From assembly GCA_025526915.1 (NCBI GenBank), contig JAHLKH010000040.1, positions 1-64,000 on the forward strand: 64,000 bases of DNA. Reading direction: 5' to 3'. This stretch comes from Entophlyctis helioformis. Taxonomy: Eukaryota; Chytridiomycota; Chytridiomycetes; Chytridiales; Chytriomycetaceae. The notes beneath the pieces were generated by a model that was not told where the DNA came from, ran no database searches, and saw only the letters and a program-made list of their open reading frames with translations. Both the position numbers and the translations under genes were made by a program. Positions 4,057 through 41,742 of the stretch are shown here, one piece after another; position 1 is the first letter of the stretch; each line of letters begins with the position of its first letter.

Positions 4057-4159
4057 TGTGATATCTGTTGACGGAGTCTGGGAAGAACGAACGCAACCAA
4101 TAATGCAGGAATTTATAGTCGGCTGCGTTGCTGCGCCAAGACGGCACCTTGACGCCATT

Positions 4160-4620
4160 TCGCATCAACTTTACAGGCCAAGGTGGCCGGCATGCTGTGT
4201 TTGAGAAGTTTCTCATCAGGCATCTGCGGTCGTCTGGATATGCCTATGTGCGTCTGATGCCACGCTGTCCATCCATCCATCCATCCATCTGTGCACCAAC
4301 TGACACACGATCATGCACACACACACACACAGATCTACCGCTGCAACGAGAACCTGACCAGCCAGATGTGCCCGCAGTGCAAGCAGCGGATCCCATACGA
4401 GAACCGCACCAACCTGCGACGCTACGAGTGCACAGACTGCGAGACTGTCTACCACCGCGATGTGCTTGGAGCCACCAACATCGGAATGGTTGCACTGGAG
4501 CATCTGCTTTTTGGACAACGGCCGCTCTACTTGACGCACACGCCAGTCGATCCGCCTGTCGTCCAGCAGCCTCCAGCACCAGATCTGACGGTCAACCAGC
4601 AGCCATCAAGCGACGTCTAG
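4160..4620 (+). pseudogene. Fanzor C-terminal fragment (RuvC-III and zinc ribbon)
   Basis: Two exon pieces, about 4160-4246 and 4333-4620, joined by an intron with donor GTGCGT and an (AC)n run before the acceptor. They encode FEKFLIRHLRSSGYAY, then YRCNENLTSQMCPQCKQ, a Cys4 zinc ribbon (CPQC...CTDC), and DVLGATNIGM, which carries the RuvC-III aspartate. The Glu in NENLTS sits where Fanzors keep their relocated RuvC-II glutamate. The N-terminal half and RuvC-I are absent, so this cannot be an active nuclease. The C-terminal tail stops sooner than in copy 2. Confidence 0.85.
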
Positions 4621-4780
4621 AACCAGATCCGACGGTCGACCAGCAGCGCCCAAGACGTGCCATCAAGCGGCGTCCAGCACCGGATCCGCCTGTTGATCAG
4701 CAGCGTCCAACACGCAGACAGCGTGCCAGCAAGTCAAGTGCCACTCCACGTGCTCTGACTTCCAGCACAACCACCAACAC

Positions 4781-5050
4781 TTTGAATCGGGGCACCTCCC
4801 GATCGACCTAACGGGTCACTTTATCACATCATTTTCAAACAATGGTGCAAGGTGAGCATCTCGTTGGATGTGCCTCGCCCGCCTGTCGTCGCATGCTTGT
4901 TGCTGACTCGAACCTTCCATCGTGTGATGTGCTTGCTTGCATTCGACGCTTCTCGGGTCGAATCCAATTCCAAAACGCTTGGCAATTGTTTGAATGTCGG
5001 GCCATTTGCCGGCGGTTTGCCGGCATTCCCTCGCCCTATTGCCCACCCCT
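4781..5050 (+). ncRNA. Candidate omega-RNA region of Fanzor copy 1
   Basis: Noncoding DNA downstream of the Fanzor frame that stays highly similar to the same region of copy 2. Two hairpins are readable: ATCGGG/CCCGAT with loop GCACCT (4786-4803) and TGCCGGC/GCCGGCA with loop GGTTT (5007-5025). The second stem is kept in copy 2 while its loop is AACT. Fanzor and TnpB guide RNAs are transcribed from this 3' position, with the guide read from the flanking host DNA. Assignment as RNA is inferred. Confidence 0.5.
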
Positions 5051-31112: not shown

Positions 31113-31987
31113 TTACAGGGCAGACTTGTTGGCAAACACCTGCAGACGCACCGGGCACGCGAGCCATCAAATGCAGTGAGTAGCTGGACTATTGCAGAAG
31201 GGGCGGCAGACAGGGCGGCAACGCACCTTCTCGATGGCCTGTCTGGGCGTCATGATCTCCTCGGCGTCGCGGTCGGGGATCTCAATGCTGAACTCGTCCT
31301 CCAGCGCCATGGTGATTTCCACCTGGTCCAGGCTGTCCAGAGAGAGGTCGTTGACAAAGTGTGCGTCGAGAGAGAGCTGCTTGGCCAGAGGGGGGCAAGG
31401 CGGGGGCAGTGGTAGCAGCAGCAAGGGTAGGAGCAACAGTGACAGGAGCAGTACCAGGCATGACATGGCATGGCATGGCATGGGCAGACGGACAAAGACG
31501 GCGCTGGTCAGCAATGCAGATGGACGCAGATGGACGAAGATGGACGAAGATGGACGGGCAGGCAGATACGACCGAGCAGGCAACCATGGCATGGCATGAA
31601 TGGCAACCATGGCATGCGCTGCGGTGCCCTATCTAGCCAGCAGCCAGCCAGGCAGCCAGCAGGGACGCACCTTGGCCGGGTCGACCTTGTCAAAGTCCTT
31701 GAGGAGGCCGAGCACTCTGTCCTCGATCGCCTGCAGCGTGAGCGGGCCTGGGCCAGCCGAGAAGAAGCGCACGGCCGACACAGACGATGAGCGAGCGGCG
31801 CGGCGGCCACGGCGGCGGCAGCATAGGCGACAGGGGCGGCAGAGGCAGCCGACGTGCGGGCGGTAGCGACGTAGAGGCTGCGCTGCTGCACGGCAGAGGC
31901 GGTCGCGCTGGCAGAGGCAGCGGCCAGGCGGGGGGCCGAGAGCGCGCGGGCGGCGGCAGCAGGCGTGCGGATCAGCGTTCTGAGCAT
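31113..31987 (-). CDS. ACP1: Mitochondrial acyl carrier protein
   Basis: Canonical [17 protein letters not shown], then [20 protein letters not shown] with the phosphopantetheine serine, then [20 protein letters not shown]. The last exons are 31227-31376 and a 27-bp exon (31113-31139) encoding VFANKSAL, in phase. The start at 31985-31987 opens an Arg/Ala/Ser-rich presequence. Frames of presequence and core differ near 31770-31790, so an intron must lie between them; its ends are not fixed. Mitochondrial ACP feeds lipoate synthesis, is a complex I subunit and supports Fe-S assembly. The Fanzor element's 3' boundary lies 44 bp upstream of the ATG on the same strand. Confidence 0.9.
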
Positions 31988-32030
31988 CGTTGGCAGTTTT
32001 TCGAACAAGCGTCAGAAATCGAATCTGACG

Positions 32031-32272
32031 AGGGGTGGGCAATAGGGCGAGGGAATGCCGGCAGTTGCCGGCAAAATGCCCGACATCCAAACAATTACCA
32101 AGAATCATTGGAATTAATTGGACCCGAGAGGCGTCGAATGTAAGGCAAGCATAACACACGATGGAAGGTTCGAGTCAGCAACGAGCATGCGACGACAGGC
32201 GGGCGAGGCACATCCAACGAGATGCTTACCTTCGTAAAGTGACCCTATTGGTCGATCGGGAGGTGCCCCGAT
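32031..32272 (-). ncRNA. Candidate omega-RNA gene of Fanzor copy 2
   Basis: Noncoding tail just after the Fanzor stop, highly similar to 4804-5050. Conserved hairpins: ATCGGG/CCCGAT spanning the CDS end (about 32254-32271) and TGCCGGC/GCCGGCA with loop AACT (32056-32073). The second stem is unchanged in copy 1 while its loop differs. The tail ends about 25 bp past that hairpin. In Fanzor/TnpB systems the guide is the flanking DNA directly after this edge; here that is the ACP1 5' UTR. Expression is untested. Confidence 0.5.
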
Positions 32273-34595
32273 TCAAAGTGTGCTGGAAGTCACAGCACGT
32301 GGAGTGGCATGTGTCTTGCTGGCTCGTGACCCGCGGACAGACCGTGTCCGTGGTGGAGGCGGCAGGACGATGGGCGGATCGGGTGGTCTTGGAGGCCGCT
32401 GGTTGACAGGCAGCTCAGGTACTGGAAGCTGCTGGACGACAGGCTGACTGGCCTTTGTGTGCGTCAAGTAGAGCGGCCGCTCTCCATCGAGCAAATGCCC
32501 CAGTGCGACCATTCCGATGTTGGTGGCTCCAAGCACGTCTCGGTGGTAGACGGCCTTGCATGCTGTGCACTCGTAGCGTCGCAGGTTGGTGCGGTTCTTG
32601 TATGGGATGCGCTGCTTGCACTGCGGGCACATCTGGCTGGTCAGGTTCTCGTTGCAGCGGTAGATCTGTGTGTGTGTGTGTGTGTGTGGTGTGTGTGCAG
32701 GATCGTGTGTCAGTTGGTGCACAGATGGATAGATGGATGGCATGGCATCAGACGCACATAGGCATATCCAGACGACCGCAGATGCCTGATGAGAAACTTC
32801 TCAAACACAGCGTGCCGGCCACCCTCGCCAGTAAAGTCGATGCCCAATGCCCAGACAACGGGAATGTCCTTCTCTGGGTTGCTGACAGGGAGGCCTTGAG
32901 ACGCATCGGATGCGCGATATCTAGTGGTCGATCCTGCCAGCTTCATGATGCCCTCAAGAGCCTGTCCGCGATCAGACATGCGCTTGCAGCGCATGGCAAA
33001 CCGCTTGTCCTTGACTTTCTGTGGAATGCCATGTCATGCCATGCCGTCCAGTGCAATCAGCAGGCGATCAAGCAGCATGGCGGCCATGTCAATGGACATC
33101 CAGAACCAGAGAAAATTACCCGTGCATTCAGGAATGGCGTGCAGTACGCATGGCAGCGCAGATCCCAAAAGGCTCGCTCACCTGCTGAGACGCTGGATCG
33201 GCATGCTTTGCCATCTTGAAGGCAATCGCCTCATGGATGTCGGCTGCCTTGGCATATCGATTTGAACCTGGCACAAGAGACATGCACTGTGAGTTGATCT
33301 GGTCAAGAGTGCACAGAGTCATTGCATACATACCATCGCAGAAGTTCGCGCTCAGCTTGAAATAAGCCAGAGGAGAGCACATAGTTGGACTCGTGTGTGT
33401 ATGTGCCGGTATTGACGTTGAGCAGCATGCTGGACGCGCCAAACAGGTACCGCTTGCCCCAGTCTAGACTGACAACCGAACAGTCTCATAGCCCTTGTCG
33501 GCGAGCAGCTTGTTGGCATCAGCAACATCAGGTAGTCGCTGGGATGCATTGAAGTTGCGCTTGGCCTGTCATGCCATGGCATGAGTGAGGGATGTGCAAT
33601 GCATGTGCACCAATGCGCGAGGTTAGCATGCAAGTGACATACAAGGTTTGGCACTTTTGGCTTGGCAGCTGTGGATGGCATGTCAGTTGGTGTGGACAGC
33701 AAGTACGCGTCTGGATTGGCACAGCAACTCACATTCGCCGTTGAGGTAATCAGGCACACAATCAGCCTCATTGGCAAGACTGGGAAGCTCGCATGAAGAC
33801 GCCGTGTCGGGACCTGCGAAGCAAGGCGGCGGTTAGAATTGATGTGTGCACCAAAGCATCCAAGCACGGCACATACTGCAAGGCGACTCTGGACGGTCTG
33901 TGCGATAATCGCGAACCAACTGGCCGACACTGTATCCGTTCGAGATGACACTACTCATCCGTGTCCGTTTGGTTGGTCTCGCTGGGGGTAGAGCATCAAC
34001 CGCAGCCTGGATGAAGTCCTTGCGCTCCTTGCCACGCAGACGCTGCTTCTTGGCCTCTTGCGTCGCCTTGGCTCTAGCCGCTTTCTTGGCCTTGGTGTTG
34101 GCTGCGTCCATTTCCGCTTCGGCTTCTGCCGGCGTTTGATACCGGCCTTTCTTGGGGCGGAGGCCGGGAAGCAGGACGTCCATGACGCAATTCTCGCGAC
34201 TCGAGCTGAATGCCTTCTTGATCTCGCTGTCGGTTGACTTGAGTGTCAACTTTTTCGAGCCAGGCTCTTTGAGAAAGGTGGATTGTTAGTATCAAATCAT
34301 AAAAAGATGGCACAAACAGGCAGTGCAACTTACTGATCGCAGCAAGTAGCTCCTTTCGCAGTGCTTGCAAAGCAGGATCCTGCCCCTTGCTGTCGCGCTC
34401 CTTCTTTGTCCCCATCACAGACCAAAAGAGTGTCCTCTCTGTGATGAGAACGAAAGGGTCGCAGCTTGCCGGCTGCGGGCAAAGCTTGATGCTCTGTCTC
34501 CCAGCGAGATTGCGCAGCGCATGGAACTTGCCGGGATGCGACAGCGACTCACTGAGCACAATCGCAGCGAGCTCGTCTAGCTCTGGAGGTAGCAT
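32273..34595 (-). CDS. Fanzor RNA-guided endonuclease (eukaryotic TnpB homologue)
   Basis: Exons joined by consensus introns (one with a TACTAAC branch near 34285) give an alpha/Lys-rich N-terminus (ALPPARPTKRTRMSSVISNG), a RuvC-I strand SLDWGKRYLFGAS (33453-33470 onwards), KVKDKRFAMRCKRMSDRG, VVWALGIDFTGEGGRHAVFE, YRCNENLTSQMCPQCKQ (relocated RuvC-II Glu, then a Cys4 zinc ribbon) and YHRDVLGATNIGM (RuvC-III Asp), followed by a Pro-rich tail. These are the TnpB/Fanzor signatures. RuvC-I is read in a different frame from its flanks: a switch near 33465-33480 and a return near 33360. They could be decay, assembly error or unseen splicing. The first ATG in frame is 34595, but the frame stays open about 50 codons further upstream. 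Confidence 0.8.
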
Positions 34596-34813
34596 GACAA
34601 CGGCCTTGCCCTCTGTGGCTGAGGAAGAGCTGGATGCTGCGGCCTTCTTGCTGCGTGGCTTCTTTGGTGCGTCCTTGCCCTCCGTGGCTGGCGATGGGCT
34701 CGGCGCCGCGCTCTCGGTGGTGGCAGCCTTCCCGACTGTTGTCGGTGCCCTTCCACATTTCCCTTTTCTCCATTTTGCATTTCTCTTTGGGTTGTCACCA
34801 CTTCAATACTAGC

Positions 34814-37800
34814 TCAATTTCCAGTCCTCGTCGTTCCTGTTCTATAGCTGTGCCCAACACCGACACATGGCTTCTTGGCGTCCTTGGCAGCGGCAGCCTT
34901 AGCAACGCGTGGCTTCTTGGCGGCTTTGGCAGCAGCACCGTTGGCAGCCGTGGCGTCCTTGGCAGTGGTGTCCTTGCCGACGCGTACCTTCTTGGCTACG
35001 CCGCCCTTGTCGGTGATTGAAGTGCTGGACGCGGTCCGCTTGTGGGTTGGCGCGGCGTCCTCAGTGGCAGCCTTCCCAACGCGTGGCTTCTTGGTGGCTA
35101 TGGCAGCAGCAAGCCTGGCGTCCCTGGCGGCTTTGGCAGCTGCATCCCTGACGGCTTTGGCAGCAGCAAGCCTGGCGTCCCTGGCGGCTTTGGCAGCTGC
35201 ACGCTCGGCGTCCCTGGCGGCTTTGGCAGCTGCACGCTCGGCGTCCCTGGCAGCTTTGGCAGCTGCACGCACGGCGTCCCTGGCGGCGTTGGCAGCTACA
35301 CGCTTGGGATCCTTGGCGTCTGCGGCGTCCTTGGCAGCTTTGGCAGCAGCGCGCTTGGCGGCCTTGGCAGCCTTGGCGGTCTTGAAAAGTGCCGCAATCC
35401 ACACTCTCACGTCCTCAATGGATGCACTGGGCATCAGCTTGAGGGCCGCAGTGACGGCCAGCTCAGACTGGCTAGAGATGTAGTGCCGCGCGAGCATGCC
35501 ACACACATCCCTGGCCAGATTGCTGTAAATGTCGTGCCTTGCATTCGCGCAAAGGCTGCTATCAAGCCTGTAGGGCAAGACAGCCTCCATAGTGCCCGCG
35601 TGCACAGCGTCTGCCGTCTGCGCACTTGTGTGCATCAAGGCCGACAGCTCTGCATCTGCCTGCACCACGGCTGACAGGATCGCATCGGCCTGGATTGTCA
35701 CCGTCTGCTGCGTCGCGTCCATCATGTCGGCATCCATCATGGCTGCTCGCATCGTGTCCATCTGTGCCATGTCCATCATGGCTGCTTGCCGCGCGTCTTT
35801 CTGGAACGTGTCGCTGTGTGCCGTGGCCGCCTGCTGCATTGCATCAATCAGTGACATGTCCATCAGCATTGTGCACGTCTGCATCATGTCCATCTGTACC
35901 GTGTCATCCTTCAGCTTGGCTGCGTTGGTTTGCAGCACCCTCCGCGTCCAGGTGCGATGGATCGTCATTTGCATGACTGTTACAATCCAGGAGTGGATGA
36001 CATGCTTGGGTGCATACGGCTGCACCATCATGCTGTCTGCCAGGACATAGCCAAGATGGCGCAGCAGCATGTCCACAGCACCGCCTCCACCTGATATACT
36101 GCTGGTGAGGGCTGTAAGCAGCTCATTTGCTGATGGAACTGCTGCTGCTGCTGGTGGTGGTGGCGGTTGGACGGCTGAAGATGAAGCGCCGGTGCTGCTG
36201 GCTGCTGTCGGCTGATTGTGCACATCATGCTCGTCCTGGATGCATGGGTCGTCAGGCTGCACAGGCAGCTCGTGCTCATCGTGCTCGTCCTGCTCGTCGT
36301 GTTCATCCTGATCATCGTGCTCGTCCTGCTCGTCCTGATTGTCGTGCTCGTCCTGCTCGTCCTGATCGTCGAGGTCGCCATGCATGTTGGGTTGCTTGGC
36401 AATCTTGGCAGTATCAAAGGCGCAGATCTTGAGAGCCGTGTCACTCTCGAGAGTCACCAAGCTGCCATAGCGAGGGATCTTTGTGTCGCTGCTGTGCGGG
36501 CCGGTGCCGTACATGTGCCAAACAATGATGCCCTGCTTGTGAATGCATCCACCTGACAAGAGCGTCGCGCTCTCGTCCTCGTCAAAGTCCTTGGGGTTGA
36601 CATAGTAATACTGCGTCAGCTTGCCTTGGCTTGCCTCCAGGACACAGTACTCCAGAGGCAGTGGCGCGTCTGCATCCAGCTTGACCAGATCCGCGACCAT
36701 GGCGCCGATCAAGGCAAGGGCAGCACGCCACAAGCCGGCCGTGAAATAGTAGACTGTGAGGGTGGTGTCATGGCTGATTGAACTGGGTGTCTGCTCGGCG
36801 AGTGGTGTCTTGGTTTGGGGCCCAAAAAACTTGGTGTTTGCGAGATCGCATGACTGCATCTTCTGCATACCACACAAGTCAGCATACACAAAGCCAAGCA
36901 AACAGAGCAGCATGCCGATCAAACCCCATACCGCCATTTTGACAATCTGCTCAGGGCGGCTGTGTGCATTGCCTTTAGGTCTTGGCTGTCCTTTCGGATG
37001 GGTGGCCGCGGCAAGTGTCATGACTGGCATCGCAATCATGCGGCCGAGCTTTGCAAGCTTCTGACGAGTTGCCCGTCGACTGCCAGCAACCCATCTGTGG
37101 CATGACACAAGTGTCAGCAAGCACATTCAAGGCGCATGGCATGCCATATGTCGCGTACGCCTTCTTCTTGCCAACAGTTCCAGCCTTGCGAGCACGCAGG
37201 CCTGACTTCTTCTTGTTCTCTCTGATGATCTCCTGTCGCGTGGCCTTCTCTTTTTTCTTGGCACGCTCCTTTGTGTGCGCAGCCCGCTTGGCTGCCGTGA
37301 ATTGGAATGGCGCCTGTGACGGTTGGATGCAGCATCAGGCGGCCATTCCAAGTGCACCAAACACAGCCACAATCGCCAAGGGTGCACCAAACTCACCGTC
37401 GTCTCAGTGTCGGCAAGATCGCCAACGGGAAAGGTCTTGGAGCATGCCAGTGCTGTGAAAATATTGTTGGACAACTGTGGTGGCTTGGGCGGCAGTGGAG
37501 GAGGACCAACCTGTGGAGTGGGATGGTGAGCAATCGCGCCAAATCATTCCATGCACATGCAGTCAGTGGAAGTCGAGACGCACTGCACTTTGCTCAATGA
37601 TGGACTGCAGCAGGGCGACGGCCTTTTGGCGCTGATTGATGAGTGTCGGCGGTTTGGCGTTTTCTGGATGTGGACCTATGGGGTGCTCCAGGAAATACAG
37701 CCAGGCTGACGCCTTGTCGTGGATAGCAGCGACAATGGATCGCGGTGCAACTCGCGTGGTCATCCTGCCGTGGTACTTGACTTTCTGCGTCTCTGTGTCC

Positions 37801-40016
37801 AGTACTATGCATTCAACACAAATGGATCTGTGAGTGGATGCTGTTGAATCATTTCAATGCAATCAACACCTACTGGGAGTGGATGTATGCCGGTGGGATG
37901 CGCATGGCGGATTGGCAATCTTGTCGAGCTGCATCTGCATTCTCATTGCTGCGTTCTGTCCAGAAGCAATGGATCAAGTCAGCCGCATTCAAAATCAGTA
38001 AATGCGCATGGTGCAAGAGCAACAGCATGCATTCAAGCCATGCAAACATACCAATGCGCGATAGATTGGCTCATCTGCTGGGAGGAGCTTAAAAATGCCA
38101 TCTGCTCCAAGAAACTGCTCGCTGGCAATCTGCAGCAGCTGGGCACTTGCTGCCTTGCAGATGGCTGCCAGGATGTCGCGACTCGTGACAGCATCGTAGC
38201 TGCTCGCAAGGCGGTTGACTGTGCACCTGATGATGGTGTCGAGTGCCACATGGCAACCCTTCACCTCACTGAAGGCAGCATCCAACCGCCTGCTGCCAAC
38301 AGTGCTGCTGACAAGCTGCTCGACCCTGCCACGTGTCAGGTGGACAAGCTGGACACCGTTCTCAGCCTGCTGCTGCTGCTGCTGCGCAGTATGGCTCAAA
38401 CAACATCCATCCATCAAGCACCTGCACAATAATGAGATCGCAGCATCAGAAACCGAAACTCAGTGTCAGTTTTGCCAGAAACGCCACAGATTCCATGCAT
38501 TCATACTTCATTCCAACAGATGGAGTCGTGTTGACATCCATGTGGTTGGTGTGGTCGGCTTGAGGCTCAGATCTGTGCAAGGCATTCAAACGCATCAATG
38601 CCATCATGTCCATGACATCCTTCAAGAATAAACATACCTCGCGACGATTGGCGCTGTGATTGCACCAGCAGAGGCCCCAACATCATTCCGGTTGACAAAG
38701 ACTTCAAATGCGTTCTTGAATGCCTGGACAAGGCTCTCATCACCATTCTTGACCAGCTCCTCGATGTACGCGTCCCTGACGCCGTCCATGAACGCCTTGG
38801 CCTCGTCAGGAGTCTCGAGGATCGCGCAGAGGTCAGCCGCCTTGATGTTGAGCTGTTTGGCCTTGGCATCAAACCGCGCATTGACAAACTTGACCGCGGC
38901 GGCGATTCCTGGCAGGGAATGCAAGCAGAATCGCGCATGTAGACAAAGAATGGCATGTGAGTGATGGCAGATACTACAAAACAGGCGCGGCAACTCACCG
39001 TGGCCAGGGCGGCCAAAATAGTCTGTCCTGGACAGTGCAGCGACCAGCTGGCATGCTCCAGCAAAGTCGCGCACGCCCAAGACAGATGCCATGGTGGCCA
39101 GCCCACCATGGTTGTAGGATCGCAGCTGTCCAACCCGTCCATGCTCCAGATTCAGCAAAACAACAGGACAGTGACCGGCGGCATGCGCGACCAGATCAGA
39201 GTCATTGGCAATGACAATGATTGGCTGGTCACTGTCACAGAATACAGACTGTGAGCCATCAACTACAGCAGAAGAATGCAAGGCGATCTAACCTGGACTC
39301 GCGAACACGGCAGGCAATGCACACGTCTGCCTCATAGTCACATGGGCAGACTGTGCACGCCTCCTTGGATCCAGCCAGCTCTGAGAGAGCCTCATAGATC
39401 GCCTTCTTATCGGCATTGGTAACAGAAGAAGCGGTGGAGGGCGTGCTTCTCTGTCCTTAATGGCCAACAGCAGACAATGGTCAGTAAGGCAACCAGACAG
39501 TACACAGCGGCGATCTTACTTTGAAAGTGAACCAGAGTGGCGACCTTCCTGACGCTGGAAGGTGTGCCGCAGAACCTTGGCTGCTGCATGCAGCATGTTG
39601 TTGGTGCGGCTGTTGTGGACCAGTTTGAGGCCCAGGTCGCCAAGCTGGCCATCCACATGGAAGCGGATGGTGTGGCCGCCGCCAAGGGATGCCATGAACT
39701 GCTCAAAGGCCGGCTGGATGATGGCTTTCCAGCCAGCCTTGGAGCCTGGCTGGCTGATGGCGGCTGTTGCAACCAAGGCTGGGTGAAAGATGCTAAGGAA
39801 GTCGACGTGCAGCATCCCGCTGATGAACTGGGTGGTTGCAGCTGTTGTTGTTGCAGCTGTTGCAGTCTGCTGTTGCGGCGGCGGCTGTTGCAGAGGCAGC
39901 TGTTGTGGCAGCATGCTGTGGAGCACACGCTGCACAGCATGGCCAAAAGTCTTGCCGGTGTGGTCGCAGACGGCACGGCGTACCTTGAAGGCTCTCAGCA
40001 GGCCTACCAAAGTCAT
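34814..40016 (-). CDS. XPG/FEN1-like PIN nuclease with low-complexity C-terminal region
   Basis: The ATG at 40014-40016 opens MTLVGLLRAFKVRRAV, like the FEN-family N-terminus, then MLHVDFLSIFHPALV and HTIRFHVDGQ (XPG-N). Later exons give CPCDYEADVCIACRV (the acidic EAD of the I domain, about 39330), SDQPIIVIANDSDLVAHA (second acidic pair, about 39200) and LSRTDYFGRPGHGIAAAVKF (helix-turn-helix position). Further exons include ILNAADLIHCFWTER and a Lys-rich block at 37140-37310. The last long exon (to 34814) has one hydrophobic segment, an Asp/Glu/Gln/His repeat, a Met-rich block and AAAKAARDA repeats. Some junctions (39.5, 38.45 kb) are unresolved. Whether all exons form one protein is inferred. 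Confidence 0.55.
35080..35400 (-). repeat. AAAKAARDA-encoding 33-bp tandem repeat
   Basis: About seven imperfect units (GGCGTCCCTGGCGGCTTTGG on the plus strand) coding for AAAKAARDAER/L. Related Lys/Ala/Thr/Pro-rich wording continues on both sides of the 34814 stop. Confidence 0.8.
36270..36375 (-). repeat. DEQDEHD-encoding acidic tandem repeat
   Basis: Imperfect units of GCTCGTCCTGCTCGTCCTGA on the plus strand encode an Asp/Glu/Gln/His stretch of about 35 residues inside the XPG-linked open frame. Confidence 0.8.
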
Positions 40017-41742
40017 GCTGGTGCTGCTGGTGCGTGGGGTGTCTGTATCTGTGTTTACGAGAAAAGAATCGGAGCGTCTGGCGGAGTTGAACTTTTCATT
40101 GCATGAAAACAGAGAGCGAGTGGATAGAGAGCGAGCAGTCTGGCACTCGCCGCCCACTGCCCAACAGCCATAGAGGGAGCAGCAAGCACAGCCAACAGCC
40201 AGGCGTTCAAGATGTGGTCGTGTGTTGCTGGCACAGTCATTGATGTGATGCCACCCAGTGCGCAGCTCGACATGCACTGTGCAGCATCACTCTGCGTGTC
40301 ATGAGCCGCATTGCAGCGAGCGTCTCTCCGAGTGTCGTCTTCTCAGTCAATGTCCCCACTGCATCCATCGATCGTCCTGATATGCGTCTTCATTGTGACC
40401 CAGTGCGATGCAGTTGGTGTTGCCTGACTGGCAGCTGGTCCATGGACTGGTTGGCCGTGACGCACTGCCTGCATCGCCGCTCTGCTCTGGATTGTCCTTG
40501 TCAACACGCACAGTGCATGCAAGACTGGGATAGTCAGGATCGTCGCCATCATCATCGTTGTTGTGGTTGTTGAATGAATGGAGAGTGCTTGGTCTGTCTG
40601 GCCACTCCATGTGCTGCTCAGTGGATCGCCATCACACCAAGTGCAATGTGGCCAGACACGCCTGCCAGAACTCGCGTCCTCCTCACCAACCTCGTCTGGA
40701 TCAGTGTCGTCGAGTGTGCTGCTCGCTGAGTGTGCTGCCACTGTCGAGTTTGGCATCCAAGTCGGCATGCCAATCCAGCTGTCCAGCAAGCAGTTCCTGC
40801 AGCCAACTCCAAGGATCAGTCCATCGAGCACGTCTCAGTGGCTGCTCATCGCTGCTGCTGCATCCCATGTCGCAGTCGGAAAGCACCAGGCAGCTCAGTC
40901 CTGCGATGCCAATGCTCTCGCTGTCCTCTTGAACAACAACCAGCTCGCCCTGTTCACGGCCGTCTTGCCAACGTCCCTTGCTGTTTGGACCCATCAGACA
41001 AGCACGCAGTCAGTGCCAAGACCACACAGACACGGCCGTCAGACTGCTGTACCATCGTCGTTGATGGGCAATGGAGCATGCCTGGACAGACAGCGAGTCA
41101 ACGCACCCGCTCGCCTGTCTGCAGCCTGCCGTCTGTTCGCCCGCCTTGTTGGGCACGCCTCTCAGACGGCCACGCTGCTCTGCTGGATGGCCTGCTGCAT
41201 GGCCTGCTGCATGCCACCTTGAGCAGTGGCCTCGCTGTCTCCCCTGAAGGACTTGTCCAGCAAGCGAGTGCTGCCCCATATCCGTGCTGTCGCCTGCGTT
41301 GCCGTCGTGTTGGTGGCTCGTTGTTGTTTGTGTGCAGTTGGGCGGCAAGTGCAGCAGCGTCTGGATCTGGCATGGCGCGTTGCTGCTGTGCTCGCATCGC
41401 GCAGTGTCAGCACCGCGCAAGGGCTCTCTAGATCGGCCAATCACAGCGATTCCACCAGGGGTAATGGTATGAGAACCGGGCCCGAATCTGACCGCCTGCA
41501 CCACCACCAACAACAACAGCCCTTTTACAGCGTCGCACATGTCGTCGGCCATTCTGCGTGGCACTGGATCTACGCCCCTGTGGGGGTTCTCCAAGGCACT
41601 CGACCTGCAGGATCCTGGTGCGTCTGCTGCCGCTGCTTGCCCTTGTCCATGGCACCGACCCAGTCCAGTCCAGTCCAGTTCAACTCAAGCGATGCATGTG
41701 TGACAACCAGATGCCGTCAAGTCTGAAAAGGACAAGGCGTCG
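40017..41742. other. Orphan region between the element genes and DNAAF3
   Basis: No gene can be firmly supported. On the minus strand, open frames at 40701-40994 (acidic, with LVVVQEDSESIGIAGLSCLV), 40343-40831 and 41010-41594 look partly protein-like but switch frame without clear introns. On the plus strand 40578-41222 is open for 214 codons and may be their shadow. The element's 5' end should lie here. A GTCCA repeat occurs at 41665-41685 just before DNAAF3. Confidence 0.4.

Follow-up and report, generated by a model that had tools for sequence, protein, structure and literature searches.

The window analysed here is the whole stretch of 64,000 nucleotides (nt) at positions 1-64000 of contig C40 of the chytrid Entophlyctis helioformis, whose genome assembly comprises 29.57 Mb in 482 contigs. 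On the minus strand, positions 32030..41482 (9,453 nt) hold a whole copy of a transposon, with boundaries drawn from comparison with other copies and with the flanks. It represents a family of DNA transposons, some 9-9.5 kb long, with one recognisable gene. In the simplest reading of its sequence, this gene most likely encodes one polypeptide with an N-terminal XPG/FEN1-like nuclease domain, an uncharacterised middle region, a basic linker and a C-terminal Fanzor1-like part. The original prediction for this DNA had ended at 40016; the upstream limit of the element lies beyond it, at 41482.

The left end of the element, GGCCCGGTTCTCATACCATTACC, occupies 41482-41460 on the minus strand, and the right end, ...CCCTCGCCCTATTGCCCACCCCTC, ends at 32030 on the same strand; both were defined by comparison of copies, across which the right end reads GGTAATTGTATGAATATCGGGC or a longer version. 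Left and right ends pair as an imperfect terminal inverted repeat of 22 nt, in which 18 of 22 positions agree. Aligned flanks gave a target-site duplication, GTCAGATTCG, exact on both sides of the window copy (41483..41492 on the left and 32020..32029 on the right, minus strand). The 9-nt duplications of the other four complete copies are exact in C24, carry one mismatch in C35 and in C395 (the latter read by eye), and one or two in C67, depending on register. The Mutator-like combination of a 9-bp target duplication and terminal inverted repeats was thus found in five of five complete copies. The left-end pattern (at most one mismatch) occurs 68 times in the genome and its reversed control not at all; a nuclease segment lies 0.5-4.5 kb inward of 53 of the 68, and none lies on the wrong side. 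Because shared ends and target-site duplications enclose both nuclease and Fanzor, the two lie inside one inserted unit.

The gene was read from the window as a 20-exon model and checked on six other copies, two of them partial (C121 covers exons 7-20 only, and C37 is without exon 1). Exon 1 (39520..40016; all gene coordinates are on the minus strand) contains the start codon, MTLVGLLRAFK, HVDF and FHVDG, with splice sites compared over copies; the last two motifs supply the acidic residues that should come first in a PIN-like fold. Exon 2 (39293..39455) encodes YEADVC (E, D) and has a 2-nt gap relative to other copies, exon 3 (38999..39231) encodes ANDSDLV (D, D) and TDYF (D), and exon 4 (38638..38908), with GIAAAVKFVN, ends the nuclease-like domain. 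Exons 5-11 (36932..38572) form the middle region, which in copy C395 had no Pfam match at E<=0.1. The first part of exon 12 (34862..36862) comprises more of this region, an acidic DEHDEQ repeat and a Lys/Ala-rich linker, and is continuous with the Fanzor part in other copies; in the window copy, an insert of 123 nt (34737..34859) follows it. This insert is intron 12 of the 20-exon model, so the gene proper has 19 exons. The Fanzor part begins in the rest of exon 12 (model exon 13; 34334..34735) and extends through model exons 14-17 (33334..34266), with the RuvC-I motif SLDWGK in exon 17, and model exons 18-20 (32273..33267), with the rearranged glutamate, the Cys4 zinc ribbon, the RuvC-III Asp and the stop codon.

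GT..AG is conserved at most splice sites. The exceptions are intron 18, with GC in each of the six other copies, and introns 1, 4, 7, 13 and 14, which in some of the copies are different; the ends of exons 1 and 7 were set by copy comparison. Splicing at the nuclease end agrees with two predicted NCBI proteins, P0001 and P0002. In copy C395, the exons sum to 5,907 nt, or about 1,970 codons. The same gene order is found in C395, C24, C67, C35 and C37; the last of these has a missing or rearranged 5' end.

Continuity of the frame argues for a single polypeptide. It is unbroken across the nuclease/Fanzor junction in five of the six other copies (L032, L015, L029, L030 and L031), including L029, which has an insertion further upstream. 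Ahead of the Fanzor LFW motif, 219-626 residues are open in all five copies examined, and the ratio of nonsynonymous to synonymous substitution rates (dN/dS) over the last 230 codons before this motif is 0.33-0.41 in five comparisons. The coding regions of the element are under purifying selection: dN/dS is 0.22-0.32 for the nuclease exons in four divergent comparisons and 0.50 when the close relatives C395 and C67 are compared, 0.44-0.45 for the middle region, and 0.38-0.58 for the Fanzor exons in five comparisons, one of them on 77 codons only (exons with internal stops were skipped).

The pairing recurs throughout the genome. For the nuclease segment, the genome has at least 44 matches (40 of 56 candidates were scored); for the Fanzor segment, it has at least 69 (40 of 297 candidates scored). 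Linkage was counted over 146 nuclease and 181 Fanzor places among the matches listed, and the resulting figures are lower bounds. A same-strand Fanzor lies 3-9 kb downstream at no fewer than 82 of the 146 nuclease places, 77 of the 82 at 5.0-7.0 kb; none is upstream on the same strand, and one is on the opposite strand. The original prediction, of a Fanzor gene linked to a same-strand upstream nuclease gene, is therefore borne out as to linkage and needs correction as to number, since the two read as one gene.

In the N-terminal domain, the motifs HVDF, FHVDG, EADxCIA, (N/G)D(S/T)DL and (T/N/S)D(Y/F)F follow the order of the acidic motifs of the XPG/FEN1/EXO1 family, and YEAD is common to the element domain and human EXO1 (YEADAQLA and ITEDSDLL). 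Both acidic clusters claimed in the original prediction are present in exons 2-4, as YEADVC and ANDSDLV, together with TDYFGRPGH; the turn that it also named, TDYFGRPGHGIAAA, appears once intron 3 (38998-38909) is spliced out and not otherwise. Nine diverse copies were compared, with 40-80% identity to the first and four of them at 40-51%. The acidic residues of the I-region (E95, D97, D118, D120 and D178) are invariant in all nine. All nine also match XPG_I_2 (PF12813) at E<=1, with a best E of 3.3e-5, and this is the best family for each of the five sequences with individual match tables. Other matches were to 5_3_exonuc_N (four of nine), NYN_YacP (weakly, one of nine), SlyX (one of nine, E 0.0089) and, weakly, a few further families. 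We regard the domain as a putative XPG/FEN1/EXO1-like metal-dependent nuclease whose family membership is unproven. It differs from the known family in falling under the profile cut-offs, in its fusion to a Fanzor and in being carried by a transposon.

Several results weigh against a fused XPG/FEN1-like nuclease in a living element. The best XPG_I_2 score, 24.0 bits, stays just under the gathering cut-off of 24.2. The canonical Pfam families XPG_I and XPG_N did not match the domain sequences, and none of the four matches of XPG_I (PF00867) in the genome is one of these copies. No nuclease was among the matches of PDB sequence searches to E 10, and hhalign gave no significant similarity to a small alignment of XPG/EXO1 sequences (probability 0.4%, P 0.15), with two of 30 column shuffles outscoring the real comparison. 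It is because of these last two results that we call the domain XPG/FEN1-like and not a proven member; the predicted nuclease identity thus fared unevenly against profiles, with a near-threshold match to one family. As to the fusion, the sixth copy at the junction (C121; L033) has a frameshift in the linker repeat, and 64 of the 146 nuclease and 99 of the 181 Fanzor places are unlinked among the matches listed. Six of the unlinked nuclease and 22 of the unlinked Fanzor places are near a contig start, and C24 was counted as unlinked, though its Fanzor is in L032. Finally, each of the five complete copies compared has at least one frame defect, so an active copy is still to be found; these defects may be sequencing errors in the assembly.

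In the C-terminal part, the Fanzor motifs named in the original prediction (RuvC-I SLDWGK, the NENLTS glutamate, the Cys4 ribbon and DVLGATNI) are all present. The exon at 32665-32273 reads CNENLTS...CPQC...CTAC...RDVLGATNI, and the TnpB/Cas12f zinc domain (PF07282) scores 40.7 bits in the window and 39.9 in C395, with a cut-off of 26.3. A published Fanzor signature with the rearranged glutamate is D{P}G ... ExxxxxxCxxC x(12,18) CxxC x(4,8) D (PMC10711439), whose first gap, printed 'x(120160)', we took as 120-160. Copy C395 fits it in DWG and in E-x6-CPQC-x16-CIPC-x6-D, and its first gap, at 161, is one over. A PDB sequence search with the Fanzor part of C395 gave no match at E<=0.1. Elsewhere in the window, a second Fanzor 3' part lies at 4156-5050 on the plus strand, with a GDSL lipase gene directly downstream. 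At C23:81462-81698, a Fanzor zinc exon belongs to an open frame of unusual length (598 aa), and its flank (L042) is without the right end of the element; this may be a domesticated or stand-alone Fanzor.

The window copy itself looks inactive: exon 2 has its frame gap, the absence of one base present in other copies shifts the frame just before the RuvC-I motif SLDWGK, and the insert is a further defect. It is chimeric: its 5' part is 92-95% identical to one subfamily and its 3' part about 95% to another. Its stop at 34814 arises within the 123-nt insert, which is absent at that position in the six other copies compared. The insert sequence (34859-34737) matches 14 further places, 10 at 97-98%, and four pairs of insert-like sequences lie 5.7-5.9 kb apart, on C299, C413, C177 and C9. 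Because of these pairs, we read the insert as a probable solo long terminal repeat. They also ruled out an introner, which had been considered for the GT..AG stretch at 34861-34737.

Further variation was seen at the left end. Tandem repeats of ~28 nt with ATTGG (inverse CCAAT), perhaps the element promoter, lie inward of 41482 and in several of L009-L028, and their number varies between copies. The left flanks of the C67 and C297 copies are identical in sequence; therefore, one is a duplication, or both lie in the same repeat. At C35:165458 and C436:7860, the left ends are just ~300-450 nt from the Fanzor zinc exon, as expected of internally deleted derivatives.

The 3' end of the element (32031..32229, minus strand) is conserved in 27 of 28 right-end stretches, L042 being the exception, and has intron-like features. 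In the window copy, GTAAG stands at 32229 and the branch-point-like TGCTGAC follows (A at 32175), with no AG from there to the right end; over 32229-32025, the first AG is in the host flank. Among 27 right ends, GTRAG is at the donor position in 26 (25 as AAGGTRAG) and TGCTGAC is present in every one. The ~96 nt from TGCTGAC to the element end are free of AG in 24 of 27 (observed/expected AG 0.02). The first AG lies 1-12 nt beyond the element end in 24 of the 27 and at most 8 nt into the flank in 22, against a 43% window background (p 4e-5; the 27 ends are related copies, not independent). These features suggest an intron begun by the element and completed by a host gene.

The flanks fit this picture. 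Mutator-like elements insert in or near genes (PMC6446971), and the window element sits in the 5' region of an acyl carrier protein gene (PF00550 in 31170-31628) that starts at 31987 on the minus strand, 43 nt beyond the right end. Pfam support for a host gene in the orientation of the element was obtained in six of 20 flanks (20 of the 27, with one forward open reading frame each): acyl carrier protein, GDSL lipase, semialdehyde dehydrogenase, a PALP enzyme (30.1 bits, under its cut-off of 35), Sec66 and peptidase M76. Two further flanks with weak sub-threshold matches only were left out of the count, and among opposite-strand frames one of 19 matched (PTH2). Probable host start codons are 22-60 nt beyond the element end; the matched reading begins at the probable start in two of the six host genes, and the other four match in a later exon.

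By its position, the 3' end (32031-32229) is also presumed to hold the guide-RNA scaffold. None of 25 predicted pairs at the right end covaries; Rfam had no match in the 3' end. A TTCG..CGAA hairpin there looked promising by eye and was rejected, since matches and mismatches at its inner positions follow no pattern. The spliced 3' intron as guide RNA is unlikely because the first AG falls 1-12 nt past the end, short for a guide.

The role of Fanzors for their transposons has been left open, and cutting of the empty site followed by copying through recombination has been considered for TnpB and Fanzor (PMC10432273, in the portion available); TnpB likely keeps its transposon in genomes (available text of PMC10278001). 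The account we favour, as a tentative one that falls somewhat short of an even chance, is a fusion transposon that combines RNA-guided cutting of the empty allele with 5'-nuclease trimming that favours copy-back. An RNA from the 3' end, with a guide copied from flanking host DNA, would direct the Fanzor part, which would cut the empty allele. The attached 5'-nuclease would trim the exposed ends and push the break towards homology-directed repair, which an EXO1-based Cas9 tool raised (available text of PMC11107001). Repair would then restore a copy of the element, with the occupied chromosome as template. For moves to new sites, the element would probably depend on a transposase not recognised here.

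Many RNases are found among PIN-like folds. The N-terminal domain might accordingly be a PIN-type RNase that trims the long transcript of the element into guide RNA, and not a DNA flap nuclease. The weak NYN_YacP match would fit, as would the making of guide RNA by TnpB from its own mRNA (PMC10278001, in the text available), but the most consistent matches, XPG_I_2 and 5_3_exonuc_N, are DNA 5'-nuclease families, and SpuFz1 and its guide RNA occur without such a domain in the account available (PMC10432273). We consider the RNase reading unlikely. No better placed is a part for the domain in transposition, as a mobility enzyme or in the repair of 9-nt gaps and flaps at new insertions. In its favour, despite the MULE-like ends and duplications, no transposase family scored above cut-off in the element pieces scanned, and no MULE transposase (PF10551) was found in the genome by an exon-by-exon search that could miss split genes, other transposase superfamilies not having been searched; Fanzor elements without a transposase are, however, known (available text of PMC3627910). 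It is improbable that the fusion itself is at once the mobility and the maintenance enzyme of the element, which would spread without a classical transposase by RNA-guided cutting and attached 5'-end processing, insert a short way upstream of like-oriented host genes and have its transcript spliced into the host gene through a host acceptor.

Slightly less probable still are two separate proteins made from one element through an internal start or an alternative promoter. In two of five copies, the 150 residues that precede the Fanzor core include a Met, and the S. punctatus Fanzor is a stand-alone protein of 638 residues (PMC10432273, in its available part), but these residues are without Met in the other three copies, and the junction is open and constrained. 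A domain that keeps its fold and is not a working nuclease is even harder to credit: the sub-threshold profile score and a VNG in place of VDG in one of two nuclease fragments in L024 would favour it, yet the five I-region acids are invariant even in the four copies at 40-51% identity, and selection is purifying. A host gene that happens to stand beside a Fanzor is ruled out by the many copies with the same ends, shared duplication and fixed spacing; as far as tested, the exons are not those of a host family free of Fanzor.

The family was seen in E. helioformis alone among the sequences searched. A protein search with A1 returned six proteins among 8,000 candidates, all from this species, and the long N-terminal part found no relative at E<=0.1 among 7,999 candidates. 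With the Fanzor protein as query, none of 7,999 candidates was a match, but low-complexity words perhaps filled this list, so the result is no evidence of absence. The DNA collections searched beyond E. helioformis were viral and prokaryotic, and no relatives were confirmed in viral contigs, prokaryote contigs or phages (for phages, with a piece of one copy as query). As the original prediction had supposed, the linkage has not been found described: no open-licence full text was found with both Fanzor and XPG, and none with Fanzor and PIN, FEN1 or flap endonuclease beyond passing mentions in one. A Fanzor paired with a FEN1/EXO1-like domain in one gene was likewise not found described.

Spizellomyces punctatus, the host of the Fanzor1 element Spu-1 (SpuFz1), is a chytrid. 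Spu-1 shares with the present element a fungal host, inverted repeats and the lack of a detected transposase, and its guide RNA extends across the repeat at the right end, the guide lying in the flank; it differs in its size of about 2.1 kb and its single open reading frame (638 residues), and the available text mentions no second nuclease (PMC10432273). The MuDR-like Fanzor1 elements ROr-4, PBl-3 and MCi-4 of Mucoromycota are likewise fungal, with inverted repeats, 9-bp duplications and no MuDR transposase, a likeness at the level of description, and the passages available describe no XPG-like domain in them (PMC3627910). Accessory nucleases also occur in the same kind of element as Fanzor among viral mariner elements, which can carry Fanzor or endonuclease/methyltransferase genes; PGv-1 contains both Fanzor and a gene for a GIY-YIG nuclease. 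In these mariner elements, unlike the present one, the genes are separate, the nuclease folds are others and a transposase is present (same source, available part). A further likeness is to an engineered EXO1-based editor, which joins an RNA-guided cutter to a nuclease of the FEN1 superfamily and, unlike the element, is synthetic (PMC11107001, in the text available). If true, the natural fusion of a Fanzor to an end-processing nuclease, maintained by selection, would point to repair-directed copying and make that testable. The element fusion may be a naturally occurring form of the cutter-plus-exonuclease genome editors that have been engineered, and such a counterpart, if confirmed, would offer many diverged copies to learn from.

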